Part shown: positions 9,604 to 63,164 of the stretch, piece after piece | Layout of the letters: the number at the start of each line of letters is the position of its first letter | Position numbering within the stretch: the first letter of the stretch is position 1 | Source of the DNA: Aquimarina sp. MMG016 | GTDB lineage: Bacteria > Bacteroidota > Bacteroidia > Flavobacteriales > Flavobacteriaceae | Length of the DNA: 64,000 nt | Direction of reading: 5' to 3' | Assembly (NCBI RefSeq): GCF_018100805.1 | Contig: NZ_JAGJEA010000005.1 | Location: 186,001-250,000 of the forward strand | Notes under the pieces: generated by a model | What the model was told of the DNA's origin: nothing | Seen by the model: only the letters and a program-made list of their open reading frames with translations | Database searches by the model: none | Position numbers and translations under genes: made by a program

Positions 9604-9619
9604 TCGCTTTCGCGAAAGC
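9604..9619. repeat. GCTTTCGCGAAAGC palindrome between groES and groEL
   Basis: A perfect 14-base palindrome at about 9606-9619, in the groES-groEL gap about 20 bases before the groEL ATG. A near-identical core (GCTTTCGCGAAA) recurs inside the cusA gene near 23222. In RNA it would form a short hairpin; its role is unknown. Confidence 0.6.
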
Positions 9620-11406: not shown

Positions 11407-12888
11407 TTAAGAATACTGCTTAACAATATCTTCAACTAACTTTGAAGTTTTCTTGTACTTTTCTTTTGCAATCAATCGTTTTGGAGGAGCCATTCTTACC
11501 TCACAATCAGTTAAAGAACAAGTTTCACAAGTTACACCTACTTTAACCTTAGGAATTTTAGAATCATTAACAAAACTGATCTTTTTCTCCAAAGCAGAAG
11601 AAATTAAAAACCCAATTCCGATACTACGATAGTAATCTTTTCTAAAAGGGTCTTTTGTTGCAGAAGTAAATACTAAATATTGCTGATTGGTATCCGCATA
11701 ATCCGAAATCTGAATATCAAATGCATAATTCAGATCTTCACTAGCGGTTCGTTGTAACGTTTTTATAGCCATCCAACGTCTACAATAGTGTTCGTTAACC
11801 TCATTTGCATGTGGTTGCTGCTGATGGGTAATATGTAACTCTTTCACCAAATTAAATTTCTCAACGCCTAACTTATGTGTAAACCTTAGGAAAAATACAT
11901 TTTGCATCCCAAAATCCTTTGGTAAAACATTGGTTAACCGCTGATAAAATGATTCTGGAGAAGCATTATATAATTTCATGATTTTATGAAAAGCCTTCTC
12001 AGAAAAACGTTTCATATCGAATAGTTCTTTGAGATGATCCCTAAGATGGTTTTTAGGAATAATTAATGCTCCTGCAAAATATGAAGCATAAAAATTATGC
12101 AGTACTTCTTCAAAATTATCATAACGTATCCAAGAAAAAGTATAAGGCCGTTCTTTAATTTCCAGATATTGATATCCTAATTCCTTGGCATAAATAAATG
12201 TTTTTTGCGGCTCATCAACCCTATCTGATAACAACAAAGTCTTTGTAGAAGGCACGAAAACCGATCTCAGGTTATCTAATTCTTCTTCTTCAGGAATACC
12301 TGATGAATTTATAGTATACCCATATTCCTCTTTTAGAATTTCTTCTAATTCGGCTGAAGTTATTTTTCCTGTCAGGTCCAGTTGATATGAGTTCGCAAAT
12401 TTTATCGCTTTATCTTCTAAATCCTTAAAAAAGTTATTGTGCGCTTCTTGATAAGATCGTAAAGAAGCTAGATAAAAACCTTCTCGACTCATATTATAGT
12501 GCTGAGCGATTTCTATAATTGTACTTATAAAAGCATTGACCTTAGAAGGAGCATTGGCTATGATATCTATAAGATCACTTTGTTGAATCCCGAAAAGTTC
12601 TAATGGAATCTCATCCAATATTCCAGACTGTAGAATTTCACCAATTGGTGCTAGGTTTTTATCTAATTTTAAAGACACCAACTGATCATAAGGCACCTCT
12701 AGTGTCTCTGCCAGCTTAATGATTTTATCTGTTTTTGGATATTTTTTTCCTTTTTCTATTTCATTAAGATAGGATTTGGAGAGTCCGCTTAACTTGGATA
12801 ACCCAAAAAGGGATAAATCCTTTTCTGTACGTATCTGTTTGATTTTCAACCCGAAAATCAATCTAATATATTCTTCTGCTATTGCCAT
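11407..12888 (-). CDS. XRE-family regulator of ScfR/RamB type (short-chain fatty acid/glyoxylate control)
   Basis: About 493 residues. The N-terminal helix-turn-helix is clear (LKIKQIRTEKDLSLFGLSKLSGLSKSYLNEIEKG). The middle has an IrrE/ImmA-like region without the HExxH zinc motif. The C-terminal domain carries the cysteine cluster CETCSLTDCEVRMAPPKRL, as in short-chain fatty acyl regulators. In Corynebacterium the relative RamB controls aceA and aceB; here the gene is divergent from malate synthase, which supports the same job. The frame is open to a TTG at 12924, and an in-frame ATG lies at 12906. I prefer the ATG at 12888 (MAIAEEYIRLIFG), because the TTG at 12922-12924 fits a -33 promoter element and the -7 box lies at 12894-12901. 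That would leave almost no leader, so the start is uncertain. Confidence 0.87.
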   Translation of the reverse strand: MAIAEEYIRLIFGLKIKQIRTEKDLSLFGLSKLSGLSKSYLNEIEKGKKYPKTDKIIKLAETLEVPYDQLVSLKLDKNLAPIGEILQSGILDEIPLELFGIQQSDLIDIIANAPSKVNAFISTIIEIAQHYNMSREGFYLASLRSYQEAHNNFFKDLEDKAIKFANSYQLDLTGKITSAELEEILKEEYGYTINSSGIPEEEELDNLRSVFVPSTKTLLLSDRVDEPQKTFIYAKELGYQYLEIKERPYTFSWIRYDNFEEVLHNFYASYFAGALIIPKNHLRDHLKELFDMKRFSEKAFHKIMKLYNASPESFYQRLTNVLPKDFGMQNVFFLRFTHKLGVEKFNLVKELHITHQQQPHANEVNEHYCRRWMAIKTLQRTASEDLNYAFDIQISDYADTNQQYLVFTSATKDPFRKDYYRSIGIGFLISSALEKKISFVNDSKIPKVKVGVTCETCSLTDCEVRMAPPKRLIAKEKYKKTSKLVEDIVKQYS

Positions 12889-12893
12889 AGAAT

Positions 12894-12924
12894 CAAAAGT
12901 AACCATTTTTGCGTAATTGCTCAA
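12894..12924 (-). promoter_or_regulatory. Promoter of the ScfR-type regulator
   Basis: On the minus strand, TTG at 12924-12922, a 20-base spacer, and TACTTTTG at 12901-12894: a full match to the Bacteroidota consensus. The predicted start lies at about 12890, giving a near-leaderless mRNA if translation begins at 12888. Confidence 0.6.
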
Positions 12925-12944
12925 AAAATAAAATATTCACATTT

Positions 12945-12958
12945 AGCGAACGTTCGCT
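12945..12958. promoter_or_regulatory. Perfect palindrome AGCGAACGTTCGCT, probable operator
   Basis: A 14-base perfect inverted repeat in the divergent gap between the ScfR-type regulator and malate synthase. Its right edge touches the -33 TTG of the aceB promoter, a position suited to repression. The regulator next door is the natural candidate to bind it, but this is inferred from position only. Confidence 0.65.
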
Positions 12959-12988
12959 TGTTTTATAAAAAACTTTTTTTTAATATTG
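12958..12988 (+). promoter_or_regulatory. Promoter of malate synthase
   Basis: TTG at 12958-12960, a 20-base spacer, and TAATATTG at 12981-12988 (one mismatch to TAnnTTTG). The predicted start near 12992 lies downstream of the first possible start codon at 12986 and so supports the ATG at 13010. The TTG overlaps the last base of the palindrome. Confidence 0.6.
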
Positions 12989-13009
12989 TTCACTCAAAAC
13001 GATATAGTT

Positions 13010-14608
13010 ATGGAAACACAGACAAACCTTAGTCAAAAAATTAGCTTCACGAAAGAAGTTAAAAACTACCATCCTGAAATTTTAACCGATGGTGCATTGA
13101 CCTTTTTAGAAGCTTTGCAAGATCGTTTTAACGAAAGACGATCAGTCCTTTTAAGAAATCGTGAGTGCCAACAGCAGTTGTTTGATCTGGGAACGTATCC
13201 TTCTTTTCCAGAAAACACTAAAGAAATTCGTAATAGCGAATGGTCTGCTGCTCCGATTCCGGAAGACCTACAGGACCGTAGAGTTGAAATCACCGGTCCG
13301 GTTGACAGAAAGATGGTCATTAATGCATTAAACTCTGGAGCCAAAACTTTTATGGCAGATTTTGAAGACAGTAATGCTCCTCTATGGGAAAACTGTTTAC
13401 AAGGGCAAAAGAATCTTATGGATGCCGTCAATAAAACTATTTCGTTCTATAATCCAAAAAAAGAGAAAACCTATCAGTTAAAAGAGAAAATCGCTACACT
13501 AATTGTACGTCCCAGAGGGTTACATCTTAATGAAAAACACCTTTTGATTAAAGATGAGGAAATGAGCGCTTCTCTATTTGACTTCGCATTATATCTTTTC
13601 CATAATAATGAACAATTAAAAGAAAATGGTTCAGGAGCCTACTATTACCTACCAAAACTGGAACACTTTACAGAAGCTATCTGGTGGAATGATGTAATTG
13701 ATTTTTCTGAAGAGTACTTAGGAATGGAACAAGGAAGTGTAAAAGTAACTGTTCTTGTAGAAACAATAACAGCGAGTTTTCAACTTGATGAAATCATTTA
13801 TGCTTTAAAAGACCATATCGTTGGATTAAATTGTGGAAGATGGGATTATATCTTTAGCTACATCAAAAAGTTAAGAAACCATAAAGATTTTGTAGTACCC
13901 GATCGTGCTCAGGTAACAATGACCAGTCCTTTTATGGATGCATATAGCAAACTTGTAATCCAGAGATGCCACAAAAGAAATATTCTTGCAATTGGTGGTA
14001 TGGCGGCTCAGGTTCCTATCAAGGAAGATGAAGAACGTAATGCTATCGCTTTTGCAAAAGTAAAAGCCGATAAAGAGCGTGAAGTGCAAAATGGTCACGA
14101 TGGTACTTGGGTAGCACATCCTGGTCTGGTAAAATTAGCATTACAGGTATTTGATAAAGAGATGTCAACTCCTAACCAAATGCATGTTAAAAGAAATGAT
14201 ATCAAGATTACTGAAGAAGATCTTTTAGCAATCCCACAAGGAACTATTACCGAAAAAGGAATCCGAGAGAATATTAATGTTGGAATCCATTATATCGCTA
14301 CCTGGTTAGGTGGAAACGGAGCTGTGGCATTATACAACCTTATGGAAGATGCTGCTACGGCAGAAATTAGCCGAACTCAGATATGGCAATGGTTAAAGAA
14401 TGAAGTTAAACTTGAAAATGGATTACAATTAAACGCCTCCATGTTTCACATACTTTTTGAAGATGAATTAAAAACTATTGAAAATCAGGCAGGAAAGTCA
14501 TTATTTGAAAGTAAAAATTATCAAAATGCTATCCAGATCTTTTATGAACTGGTAACAGCAGGGGAATTTGAAGAATTCCTTACCACTAAAGCATATAAAT
14601 ATTTATAA
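13010..14608 (+). CDS. aceB: Malate synthase A
   Basis: Condenses glyoxylate with acetyl-CoA to malate, the second step of the glyoxylate shunt used for growth on acetate and fatty acids. The protein (532 residues from the ATG at 13010) shows MFMADFEDSNAP-type signature text (TFMADFEDSNAPLWEN), the RPRGLHLNEKH segment with the active-site arginine, VLVETITASFQLDEIIYAL, LNCGRWDYIFSYIK and DGTWVAHPGLV, all typical of the A isoform. The start was chosen over the upstream in-frame codon at 12986 because of the promoter position. Isocitrate lyase, commonly the next gene in Flavobacteriia, is not here. Confidence 0.97.
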   Translation: METQTNLSQKISFTKEVKNYHPEILTDGALTFLEALQDRFNERRSVLLRNRECQQQLFDLGTYPSFPENTKEIRNSEWSAAPIPEDLQDRRVEITGPVDRKMVINALNSGAKTFMADFEDSNAPLWENCLQGQKNLMDAVNKTISFYNPKKEKTYQLKEKIATLIVRPRGLHLNEKHLLIKDEEMSASLFDFALYLFHNNEQLKENGSGAYYYLPKLEHFTEAIWWNDVIDFSEEYLGMEQGSVKVTVLVETITASFQLDEIIYALKDHIVGLNCGRWDYIFSYIKKLRNHKDFVVPDRAQVTMTSPFMDAYSKLVIQRCHKRNILAIGGMAAQVPIKEDEERNAIAFAKVKADKEREVQNGHDGTWVAHPGLVKLALQVFDKEMSTPNQMHVKRNDIKITEEDLLAIPQGTITEKGIRENINVGIHYIATWLGGNGAVALYNLMEDAATAEISRTQIWQWLKNEVKLENGLQLNASMFHILFEDELKTIENQAGKSLFESKNYQNAIQIFYELVTAGEFEEFLTTKAYKYL

Positions 14609-15089
14609 TAGCTATTCTTAATTAAAAGAAAAAGAGTTTGGATTCTGTGCCATAAAGCACCAAGAATTCTAAGTAACTACCTACATCAATACTTTACAAA
14701 ATATAGTAAGGATCATTATTGTTAAATCATCTACTATAATAATGAAAGGTAGTACAGAAGTTAAACAATTTTAATTTTTTCCGATTTTATTATTGTGCTC
14801 TTAACGGCACTCACAATTGTGAGTGCTGTTTCTTGTTATAAAAATAGTATCAATCTTTTCTTTTCTGATAAATACAAAGTCATAAACATGGTAACAAATT
14901 CCAATCTCAATACATTAACATCATAACAAATCAATTAAAGAAAAACACCTGTACCTTGGCTTATTTATACGAATTTAGCAACATAAACAACAGTTTCAGA
15001 AAGCAAGTCAGTTGTTTCAACAGTTTATATACCATAATACAAAAACTTATAAAGAATTTCGTATATCATTATTTATCTAATTTATCAGT
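14609..15089. other. 481-base gap after malate synthase, no gene found
   Basis: No reading frame of believable coding character is present on either strand, and I find no remnant of isocitrate lyase. The one clear structure is the palindrome at 14803-14830. A/T-rich sequence follows up to the DoxX-like gene, presumably including its promoter, but I see no convincing TAnnTTTG box. Confidence 0.6.
14803..14830. repeat. 28-base near-perfect palindrome, possible terminator
   Basis: The core GCACTCACAATTGTGAGTGC is a perfect 20-base palindrome and the arms extend to 14 bases with one G-T pair. It is followed by TGTTTCTTGTT on the plus strand. It could end the aceB transcript, although it lies almost 200 bases beyond the stop codon, or be a protein-binding site. 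Confidence 0.5.
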
Positions 15090-60098: not shown

Positions 60099-61772
60099 TT
60101 ATATCTTAAAAATTACTCCTTGATATGGTTTCAGGTTCATGACATTATTGTTCATCTCTAAAACCTCATAATTATTTAGTAAAGGCTCAACATCACTTAA
60201 ATTATAAGGGATTTTGAAATCAAGCGTAACATTTTTAAAATTTAAAATAACTATGATTTCTTCTTCCTTAAATTTCTTTTTATATGCATAGATTTCAGGA
60301 TTATTAAACTCTAATTCTTCAAAATCACCATAAACGAAAACATCGTGTTGTTTTCTCGTTTTTAGCAGGTTTCTATAAAAATTCAATATAGAAACCGGAT
60401 CATCATCCTGTTTTTTTACATTAATGGTATTATAATTTGGATTCACCTTAATCCAAGGTTCTTTTTTTATTGTAGTAAACCCCCCATTTATCTCATCGTT
60501 CCATTGAATAGGAGTTCTGGCATTGTCTCTCCCTTCATTATTAATCATTTTCAATGCTAATTCTTTGGAATACCTTTTAGTCTTCAAATTTTCATTATAA
60601 AAATTAAGTGATTGTATATCTCTAACTTCATCAATAGATTCTAATTCTATATTAGTCATACCTATTTCATCACCTTGATAAATATTCAAAGTCCCATTCT
60701 GGGTAGCCTGCATAATAAATAACATCTTGGCCGATGCTGCCCAATGTTCTTTATCTTCTCCAAACCTAGATACCATTCGTGCAAAGTCATGATTTCCCAT
60801 AGCATTAGCTATCCATCCTTTTTTATGCACTGCATCTCTCCATTTCTTAAAAATTCCTTTCATATTTACTAAATCAAAAGGCGATACTTCTTCAAATTTT
60901 CCATTAACAATAGTACATTCAAGAATATCAAAATGGTAGAGCATATTTAATTCCTTTCGATCATTATCAATATATAATCCTGCATTTTCGTGATTAATTC
61001 CCACTCCTTCTGCAAGTGAAAATGCATCATATTGACTAACAACTTTTTCTGTCATTTCCTTAAGATACTCATGAACTCTTGGTCCATTAGCATACACTTC
61101 TTCAATAACTTTTCTAAAACCAAAACCTGGTGCGTCAGGGTAACCTTCTCTTTTAGATATTAAAGGAATTACATCCATTCTAAAACCATCTACCCCCTTA
61201 TCCAACCAAAACCGCATTGCATCGTACATCTCTTCTCTGACTTTTGGATTTTCCCAATTAAGATCTGGTTGTTTTTTTGTAAAAAGATGTAAATAATACT
61301 CTCCAGATGTTTCATCATATTCCCAGGCACTGCCTCCAAAAAAAGATTTCCAATTATTTGGTGGACCTCCATTTGAGGATGGTTTTCTCCAATGAAAATA
61401 ATCTCTGTAAGGATTATCTTTTGATTTTTTTGCTTCTTTAAACCAGATATGTTCATCAGAACAATGATTTGCTACTAAATCAAGAATTAATCGCATACCT
61501 CTTTCATGAGTTTTTTTTAGCAACTCATCAAAATCTTTCATAGTACCAAATTCTGGCATTATAGCACAATAATCACTTATATCATAACCATTATCGTCAT
61601 TTGGTGAGCTAAAAATTGGGCTCAACCACAGTATATCAACATGTAAACTTTGTAAATAATCCAGTTTCTCTATAATTCCTCTTAAGTCTCCTATTCCATC
61701 ACCATTACTATCATTAAAACTTCTTGGATATATCTGATAAATAGTTCCTTTTTTGAACCATGATAGCTCCAT
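60099..61772 (-). CDS. GH13 alpha-glucosidase, oligo-1,6-glucosidase-like
   Basis: A 557-residue cytoplasmic enzyme without signal peptide. Conserved GH13 regions are all present: DLVANHCSDEH (about 98-108), GFRMDVI with nucleophile D200, FSLAEGVG with acid/base E255, and MGNHDFARM with N327, H328 and D329. The first residues (YQIYPRSFNDSNGDGIGDLRGI) mark the alpha-glucosidase/oligo-1,6-glucosidase group. The residue after the nucleophile is valine (V201); in this group Val is associated with alpha-1,6 and Ala with alpha-1,4 preference, so isomaltose-type substrates are likely. It lies upstream of the SusC gene on the same strand and is divergent from the LacI gene. Confidence 0.92.
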   Translation of the reverse strand: MELSWFKKGTIYQIYPRSFNDSNGDGIGDLRGIIEKLDYLQSLHVDILWLSPIFSSPNDDNGYDISDYCAIMPEFGTMKDFDELLKKTHERGMRLILDLVANHCSDEHIWFKEAKKSKDNPYRDYFHWRKPSSNGGPPNNWKSFFGGSAWEYDETSGEYYLHLFTKKQPDLNWENPKVREEMYDAMRFWLDKGVDGFRMDVIPLISKREGYPDAPGFGFRKVIEEVYANGPRVHEYLKEMTEKVVSQYDAFSLAEGVGINHENAGLYIDNDRKELNMLYHFDILECTIVNGKFEEVSPFDLVNMKGIFKKWRDAVHKKGWIANAMGNHDFARMVSRFGEDKEHWAASAKMLFIMQATQNGTLNIYQGDEIGMTNIELESIDEVRDIQSLNFYNENLKTKRYSKELALKMINNEGRDNARTPIQWNDEINGGFTTIKKEPWIKVNPNYNTINVKKQDDDPVSILNFYRNLLKTRKQHDVFVYGDFEELEFNNPEIYAYKKKFKEEEIIVILNFKNVTLDFKIPYNLSDVEPLLNNYEVLEMNNNVMNLKPYQGVIFKI

Positions 61773-62111
61773 GCAATTCAGGTTTTTAAAATTAAATAAT
61801 CACAAAAAATTTAATCCTTCTGCATTTTAAACAATGTTTACTATATTTATTAAACATTGTTTATCCTAAAATTGAAGAGCCGTACTAATCTTGAACGAAG
61901 GATATGAATTGGGGTACTGAAAGTTTGATTCTTTTATGTAGGTATTTTTGTCAAATGTTCAATTATCAATTACGACTATTACAAATTACTAAACAATTTA
62001 GAAAACTGAAAAACAAACCTTTGATTTAAAATAATACAAACGTTTGTATTATTATATTTTTAGTGAAATTGATGTTTTAATGACAATTTTTTAACGAAAT
62101 AATAAAAAAGT
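61773..62111. promoter_or_regulatory. Divergent control region between GH13 and lacI-type gene
   Basis: This 339-base gap has no gene. It holds two tandem palindromes TAAACAATGTTTA (61828-61840) and TAAACATTGTTTA (61851-61863), 23 bases apart centre to centre and 56-91 bases upstream of the GH13 start. On the plus side it holds a TATTTTTG box at 61943-61950 and the perfect operator at 62030-62053. Confidence 0.6.
62030..62053. promoter_or_regulatory. 24-base perfect palindrome, LacI-type operator
   Basis: A perfect inverted repeat of 24 bases, with the core ACAAACGTTTGT and a central CG typical of LacI-family operators. It ends 58 bases before the start codon of the LacI gene, suggesting autoregulation and perhaps control of the divergent GH13 gene. 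Confidence 0.75.
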
Positions 62112-63164
62112 TTGAAAAAAAGAAGGGTAAAACTTGAGGATATAGCCAGAAAACTAAATATCTCTATTGCAACAGTTTCTAGAGCATTGGATAAAAACCC
62201 AAGAGTAAAACTCGCTACTAGAGAAAAGGTTTTAAAAATGGCACAGGCAATGGGTTATATGCCCAATCAAATTGCCAAGAGTCTTAGTTCTGGAAAAACT
62301 AATATCATTGGGGTAATTATACCTAGATATGACGAGCCTTTCTTTATTGAGGCATGCCGTGGTATTGATCACTATGCAAGAAGTCATAATTATAAAATTC
62401 TAATCAGTTCATCTAGAAATTCTTTTGATTTTGAAAGAGAGAATCTAATTTCTTTTGAGAGAGGATTAGTAGACGGCATAATTTTATGCCCGTCGCACGA
62501 TACCGAAACCTTTGCGCATATCAGAAGTATAATTGACAAAGAAATCCCAGTAGTGTTATTTGATAATATTAGAGAAATGGTAAAAGGAGCGGATCATGTT
62601 TTGATCAATGATGATAAAGCTTCATTCTCTGCTGTAGAATTCTTTATAAAAAACGGAAGAAAAAATATTGCATTTATAGGAGGGATCAAAGAGAAAAAAG
62701 TATTTCAAGATCGATATAAAGGATACTTAGAGGCTTTAAAAAAACACAATATCCCTATTGATAAAGAAATGATATTTCATTGTAACTCTATTGATCGTGA
62801 ATTCGAAGATGATGAGATTAGTGGTTTTCTTAAAAAATTATCTAAAAAACCTGACGCTGTTTTTACGTGTACCGATAATTATGGGCTACTTGCAATGAAA
62901 ACACTTATCAAAATGGGATATAAAATTCCTGAAGACATTGCTATCATAGGTTTTGGTGATCTAGGTTTAGGAGATGTGTTTGTACCATCATTGAGCTGTG
63001 TCGCTCAGCCTAGTTTTGAGATGGGAAAAAAAGCAGCAGAGTTACTTATTGATCAACTTAATAAATCTGAGGAAGAGACTCTTCCTAAAAAAGTTATTAA
63101 GCTTAAAACCCATCTTGTTCATAGAGATAGTACTAGATTTAAAAAAGTTAACTTTCATATCTGA
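62112..63164 (+). CDS. LacI-family transcriptional regulator
   Basis: A 350-residue regulator with an N-terminal LacI helix-turn-helix and hinge (VKLEDIARKLNISIATVSRALDKN, then GYMPNQIAKSLSSGKTN, residues 7-66) and a periplasmic-binding-protein-like sugar-sensing domain (IIGVIIPRYDEPFF, GIILCPSH, VLINDDKASFSAVEFFIKNGRKNIAFIGG, PDAVFTCTDNYGLLAMKTLIKMGYKIPEDIAIIGFGD). The frame begins at a TTG codon with no ATG near; the start is therefore inferred. It sits between the GH13 and GH65 genes, so an alpha-glucoside is the likely inducer. Confidence 0.92.
   Translation: MKKRRVKLEDIARKLNISIATVSRALDKNPRVKLATREKVLKMAQAMGYMPNQIAKSLSSGKTNIIGVIIPRYDEPFFIEACRGIDHYARSHNYKILISSSRNSFDFERENLISFERGLVDGIILCPSHDTETFAHIRSIIDKEIPVVLFDNIREMVKGADHVLINDDKASFSAVEFFIKNGRKNIAFIGGIKEKKVFQDRYKGYLEALKKHNIPIDKEMIFHCNSIDREFEDDEISGFLKKLSKKPDAVFTCTDNYGLLAMKTLIKMGYKIPEDIAIIGFGDLGLGDVFVPSLSCVAQPSFEMGKKAAELLIDQLNKSEEETLPKKVIKLKTHLVHRDSTRFKKVNFHI

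Follow-up and report, generated by a model that had tools for sequence, protein, structure and literature searches.

The intergenic region between a predicted regulatory gene and the malate synthase gene aceB of Aquimarina sp. MMG016 raises the question of whether the regulator acts through a palindrome lying between the two genes and, if so, on which promoters and with which sign. The stretch analysed here (the window; 64,000 nucleotides, positions 186,001 to 250,000 of contig NZ_JAGJEA010000005.1) contains the perfect 14-base palindrome AGCGAACGTTCGCT at 12945-12958, flanked by the gene of a RamB/PrpR-like regulator of the ScfR family (11407-12888, minus strand, 493 amino acids (aa), with the start placed at ATG 12888 and not at TTG 12924) and by aceB, encoding malate synthase A (13010-14608, plus strand, ATG at 13010; TIGR01344 above cut-off). 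From its sequence, its preservation in relatives and its copies at the genes for isocitrate lyase (aceA) and pyruvate carboxylase (pyc), this palindrome is very probably an operator of the divergent regulator. It is also somewhat probable that the regulator, with the palindrome as its main operator, forms a reciprocal switch that turns the glyoxylate shunt on and pyc off and controls its own gene. The broader proposal, that in Aquimarina and some other Flavobacteriaceae a single acyl-coenzyme A (acyl-CoA)/iron-sulfur regulator serves as a reciprocal anaplerosis switch by shifting its operator from -33 to a position past -7, we regard as evenly balanced.

The palindrome is embedded in a pair of divergent promoters. 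The last T of the palindrome is also the first T of a TTG that occupies position -33 in the promoter of aceB (12958-12960, plus strand), which is followed after 20 bases by the -7 box TAATATTG (12981-12988, plus strand). On the other strand, the regulator promoter has the -7 box TACTTTTG (12901-12894) five bases before its ATG, with a TTG at the same 20-base distance (12924-12922). The earlier note had described a perfect 14-base inverted repeat touching the -33 box of aceB, and divergent promoters of matching geometry (TTG, 20 bases, box), and both descriptions are borne out in the window. To examine conservation, 80 named Flavobacteriaceae loci encoding the regulator were compared, the closest relatives being Aquimarina records (85-94% identity). 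The perfect 12-base core of the palindrome lies upstream of the regulator in 78 of these, on which the promoter counts are based, and the entire 14-mer is identical in 74/80 loci while the bases neighbouring it vary. TTG is present at the palindrome edge in 71/78 loci, and TAnnnTTG follows this edge triplet after 20 bases in 74/78 (the other four at 16 or 19). The TAnnTTTG box of the regulator promoter is likewise retained (76/78), although its TTG is poorly conserved (17/78). The divergent neighbour of the regulator is aceB in 76 of the 80 loci, isocitrate lyase in one, another gene in two and unreadable in one. The two loci lacking the core come from Xanthomarina spongicola (L056) and Flavobacterium gillisiae (L105), and neither has aceB next to the regulator; the latter carries the 14-mer with one mismatch ~150 base pairs (bp) upstream of the regulator, and there the regulator is followed by genes reading as succinate dehydrogenase subunits (6797-9475 of L105).

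The same sequence recurs at two other genes. Scanning the 5.35 Mb genome with the 12-base core, and with the reversed pattern as a control, gave two perfect copies, at aceB and aceA, and one copy with a single mismatch, at pyc. The second perfect core (L001) lies 59 kb from the aceB site and 280 bp upstream of an isocitrate lyase open reading frame matching PF00463. The one-mismatch core (L003) precedes by 29 bp the start codon (ATG) of a gene whose open frame of 1159 aa and N-terminal sequence were read as those of pyruvate carboxylase. Since these are the only places within one mismatch, the genome has no such core at acs or fatty-acid genes. The earlier note had pointed to aceA, acs and fatty-acid genes as places to search for the palindrome, and only the first of these has it; the pyruvate carboxylase site was missed by that reading. 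A search for further regulon members with the 14-mer at up to three mismatches gave no more places than the reversed control, and its sole two-mismatch place (L237) falls within an open reading frame.

Co-occurrence ties the site to the regulator and to isocitrate lyase. In a family sample of 199 genomes, the regulator was found in 31, the perfect core in 32 (10 for the reversed 12-mer) and PF00463 in 32, or 29 after dropping three matches in ~310-aa frames (G022, G095, G185) judged methylisocitrate-lyase-like by length alone. An identical set of 29 genomes carries all three features (the regulator, the perfect core and isocitrate lyase of full size), and in all of them the core is within ~80 bp of the regulator. 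The regulator occurs without the core in G013, in which its N-terminal half is lost, and in G038, which has no isocitrate lyase and carries the variant ACGAACGTTCGCA ahead of its own regulator gene. The core occurs without the regulator in G112, G172 and G173, where the surroundings look coding when read by eye, and these were set aside before counting. In a genus sample of 52 Aquimarina genomes, a full-length regulator is present in 35 and isocitrate lyase in the same 35, and in all 30 of the loci that were read, 56-58 bp separate the perfect core from the start of the regulator. Isocitrate lyase in these 35 genomes (G000 and 34 others) is of a 540-aa type in 24, with its own palindrome promoter, and of a 426-aa type in 11, ~2 kb beyond the palindrome with aceB expected between. 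The two types thus replace each other in Aquimarina while the operator stays. In four Aquimarina genomes (G213, G220, G245, G248), isocitrate lyase is itself the divergent neighbour of the regulator.

The pyc site follows the regulator within Aquimarina. Counted at up to two mismatches, it is present in 33/35 Aquimarina genomes with the regulator (a single mismatch, within the central pair, in 32 and two mismatches in G225) and in none of the four without it (p 2e-4, a value that ignores the kinship of the genomes). The pyc promoter of G177 retains an intact -7 box but no operator. The site is placed 28-42 bp ahead of the ATG, directly past TATCTTCG and one further base. Across all sampled genomes, with G153 set aside because its match is inside the gene and close to a contig start, the site occurs in 34/45 with the regulator and in 0/36 readable genomes without it. 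Among named genomes, X. spongicola and Bizionia arctica have the site past TACATTTG plus one base. X. spongicola has no PF00463 match, so that it and G038 both possess the regulator without isocitrate lyase and both keep the pyc site, an observation that links this site with the regulator and not with isocitrate lyase. These two cases favour the regulator as the binder, but they share gene neighbours and may be close kin, and so are not safely independent. Unlike the aceA and aceB operators, which are perfect, the pyc operators (e.g., L003, L284, L331 and L333) have an altered central pair (AATGTT or AACATT) wherever found, with one more change in G225. The pyc operator is perhaps a deliberately weaker site.

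Additional half-sites accompany the palindrome. In the window, GCGTA at 12911-12915 (plus strand) lies 35 bp before the GCGAA of the palindrome, within the spacer of the regulator promoter. GCGAA or GCGTA is found 34-36 bp upstream of the palindrome's GCGAA in 62/78 regulator loci (21, 26 and 15 by distance), and GCGAA at 17-18 bp in 30/78. Because the far half-site of the divergent region falls in the spacer of the regulator promoter, control by the regulator of its own gene is probable, and the suggestion of the earlier note to this effect appears likely to be right. The aceA promoters of Aquimarina (24, from all genomes with the 540-aa type) have, in every case, GCG as a half-site at a distance of 35 or 36 bp and a -7 box at 20 bases, and since the regulator gene is elsewhere in the genome for 20 of them, the half-site there does not serve the regulator's own promoter. 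TTG at -33 is missing from 18 of these 24 promoters although site and spacing are retained, which suggests a promoter needing help. The half-site TTTGCGAA, occurring in several named loci, resembles TTTGC(A/G)AA, which according to the available sections of PMC6765138 has been mapped for PrpR and RamB of Mycobacterium tuberculosis.

The regulator protein has an XRE helix-turn-helix, an IrrE-like domain and a weak ScfRs C-terminal match. PF01381 is present in 27/27 and PF06114 in 25/27 aligned members, and the ScfRs C-terminal match reaches E <=0.01 in 24/27, the window protein scoring 19.6 bits against a gathering score of 24. C369 and a CX2CX4C motif (C454, C457, C462) are invariant in all 27 aligned relatives. 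An AlphaFold2 model (mean predicted local distance difference test score 78, predicted template modelling score 0.71; less reliable near residues 75-132 and 356-367) retrieved four PrpR entries as the best Foldseek matches (E 7e-11 at best). Fold comparison with PrpR gave Z 23.2-23.5 over 258-305 aligned residues (root-mean-square deviation 3.2-4.9, 16-18% identity), the next fold being PprI (Z 13.7). A PDB sequence search with the family profile found only helix-turn-helix domains significant, with PrpR at E = 3. C369 probably corresponds to C363 of PrpR, and, by analogy, the protein may reasonably be expected to have an acyl-CoA as ligand and to bind DNA at several boxes.

Taken together, we infer binding, effector and the sign at each promoter from the computed site, its copies, the conserved geometry, the co-occurrence with the regulator and the fold. 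The regulator, presumably an acyl-CoA-sensing multimer, would bind AGCGAACGTTCGCT plus direct GCGAA-type half-sites ~18 and 36 bp upstream. Bound at the aceB and aceA promoters, where the spacing to the -7 box is constant, it would occupy the -33 region and most likely aid RNA polymerase, so that the glyoxylate shunt would be switched on when acetyl-CoA or short-chain acyl-CoA abounds; this geometry fits an activator substituting for the -33 contact. At pyc, the operator, which has a single mismatch at its centre, lies directly against the -7 box and overlaps the likely start point. This geometry suggests repression, and there the protein would most likely repress pyruvate carboxylase. Self-control would come from the half-site within the spacer of the regulator promoter. 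It is this placement, activator-like over -33 at aceA and aceB and repressor-like against -7 at pyc, that leads us to favour a reciprocal switch over plain repression. The earlier note had proposed that the regulator represses aceB: the association of the site with the regulator and aceB stands, whereas repression is the less favoured sign: the -33 placement, the missing TTG of most aceA promoters and the activating relatives (Paracoccus RamB and PrpR) lean to activation, with M. tuberculosis RamB pointing the other way.

The alternatives are considered here together with the observations that weigh against this interpretation. The glyoxylate shunt and pyruvate carboxylase serve opposite carbon sources, and joint repression of the two would therefore make little metabolic sense; the aceA promoters lacking TTG also speak for assistance. 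Nevertheless, the same regulator and site might repress aceA, aceB and pyc alike until released by acyl-CoA, which we rank second, behind the reciprocal switch, and consider rather unlikely. A protein over -33 can repress too, the operator is in contact with the -33 element of aceB and lies directly against the -7 box of pyc, and fixed spacing is also expected if TTG is a -33 element overlapping a repressor site. Moreover, the available text of PMC6765138 treats repression as the more likely role of M. tuberculosis RamB. The link of pyc to the regulator also has gaps: two of the 35 Aquimarina genomes with the regulator (G209, G247) lack the pyc site, as do Xanthomarina F2636L and F1114 (two of the four non-Aquimarina named genomes with pyc), and in the other genera of the family sample it is found in 1/10 genomes with the regulator (G038) and 0/32 readable ones without it, so that pyc is a lineage-limited target.

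The identity of the binding protein and the significance of the palindrome itself are open to similar objections. Short perfect palindromes are common TetR-type sites, and it is conceivable, though improbable in our view, that another transcription factor of, for example, this type binds the palindrome while the neighbouring regulator is a bystander. The palindrome also tracks isocitrate lyase in both genome samples, and the aceA and aceB sites alone cannot tell the regulator from another factor doing the same. The pyc site argues for the regulator, as it persists with the regulator in the absence of isocitrate lyase (G038 and X. spongicola), is missing from all four Aquimarina genomes without the regulator, and is gone in G013, where the regulator is without its N-terminal half. 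The abundance of palindromes is also ordinary. Perfect palindromes of at least 14 bases number 13 in the window, with ~8 expected from base composition; the 12-mer at up to one mismatch occurs at three places versus two for the reversed control, and the 14-mer at up to three mismatches at 38 versus 39, showing no excess. Hence the number of copies is unremarkable, as is a 14-base palindrome by itself, and the case rests on which places carry the copies, on position and on conservation, which do exceed chance. Such frequencies would suit a chance palindrome, and in favour of a terminator or hairpin a simple scan does report a terminator-like stem here (one found versus 0.1 expected). We nevertheless reject the terminator or hairpin reading, and consider this whole class of explanation very improbable, because the palindrome precedes the start codons and -7 boxes of both genes at fixed promoter spacing, and is not at a gene end, and because it is kept letter for letter in relatives, with copies at aceA and pyc.

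If the reciprocal switch is correct, the glyoxylate shunt of Flavobacteriaceae would gain a small defined regulon with an exact operator, linked to the competing anaplerotic route through pyruvate carboxylase. It would also offer a clear natural case of one site that, from two different positions, controls a Bacteroidota promoter (-7 TAnnTTTG, -33 weak or absent).

Other perfect palindromes in the window include a 20-base example, GCACTCACAATTGTGAGTGC (14807-14826), which lies ~200 bp past aceB, is followed by a T-rich stretch and is terminator-like, and a 14-base example, GCTTTCGCGAAAGC (9606-9619), 20 bases ahead of groEL (9639). The 24-base palindrome AATAATACAAACGTTTGTATTATT (62030-62053) is flanked by an alpha-glucosidase-like gene (60099-61772, minus strand) and a LacI-type regulator (62112-63164, plus strand) and is probably an ordinary LacI-family operator, the names of the neighbouring genes being read from sequence.

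Parts of this arrangement have precedents. The operator, the half-site array, the pyc target and the Flavobacteriaceae distribution were not found in targeted searches of open-licence literature, as judged from listings, whereas the ScfR family and the gene arrangement are already known from Paracoccus. In Flavobacterium johnsoniae, the available sections of PMC7366714 report confirmation of the -7 consensus and no identified -33 motif. RamB of Corynebacterium glutamicum (class 1) is a regulator of acetate metabolism whose site, AA/GAACTTTGCAAA, has the same TTTGC core (PMC4448153, in the portion available). The site layout differs, however, and the window regulator is not its equivalog, scoring 52.6 bits against a cut-off of 700 for the NCBIfam class 1 RamB model NF038139. 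Class 2 RamB is distinguished by divergence from malate synthase, whether or not isocitrate lyase is present too, which is the arrangement found in the 76 named loci above. In Paracoccus denitrificans, according to the accessible part of PMC10370305, RamB of this class is divergent from malate synthase and isocitrate lyase (ms-icl), has two-box sites, activates ms-icl on acetate, apparently represses it on succinate, and binds CoA esters. Its boxes are set apart by an 18 bp spacer, its 80-bp binding oligonucleotide as given there is without GCGAA, and 'pyruvate carboxylase' is absent from the main text of that paper. PrpR of M. tuberculosis is the closest solved fold (PDB 6CYY, 6CYJ, 6CZ6 and 6D2S). 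Its targets, in the available text of PMC6765138, are prpC/prpD of the methylcitrate cycle, and the same 17 bp are also present upstream of icl1. This sets it apart from the regulator described here, whose proposed main site, moreover, is a gapless head-to-head palindrome. At the same time, its proposed site, as given in the available text, contains TTTGCAAA and TTTGCgAA, near the half-site TTTGCGAA. PrpR binds CoA as a tetramer and uses CX2CX4C together with another cysteine for a 4Fe-4S cluster (PMC6765138, in the part available), and the motif and the further cysteine are common to both proteins.

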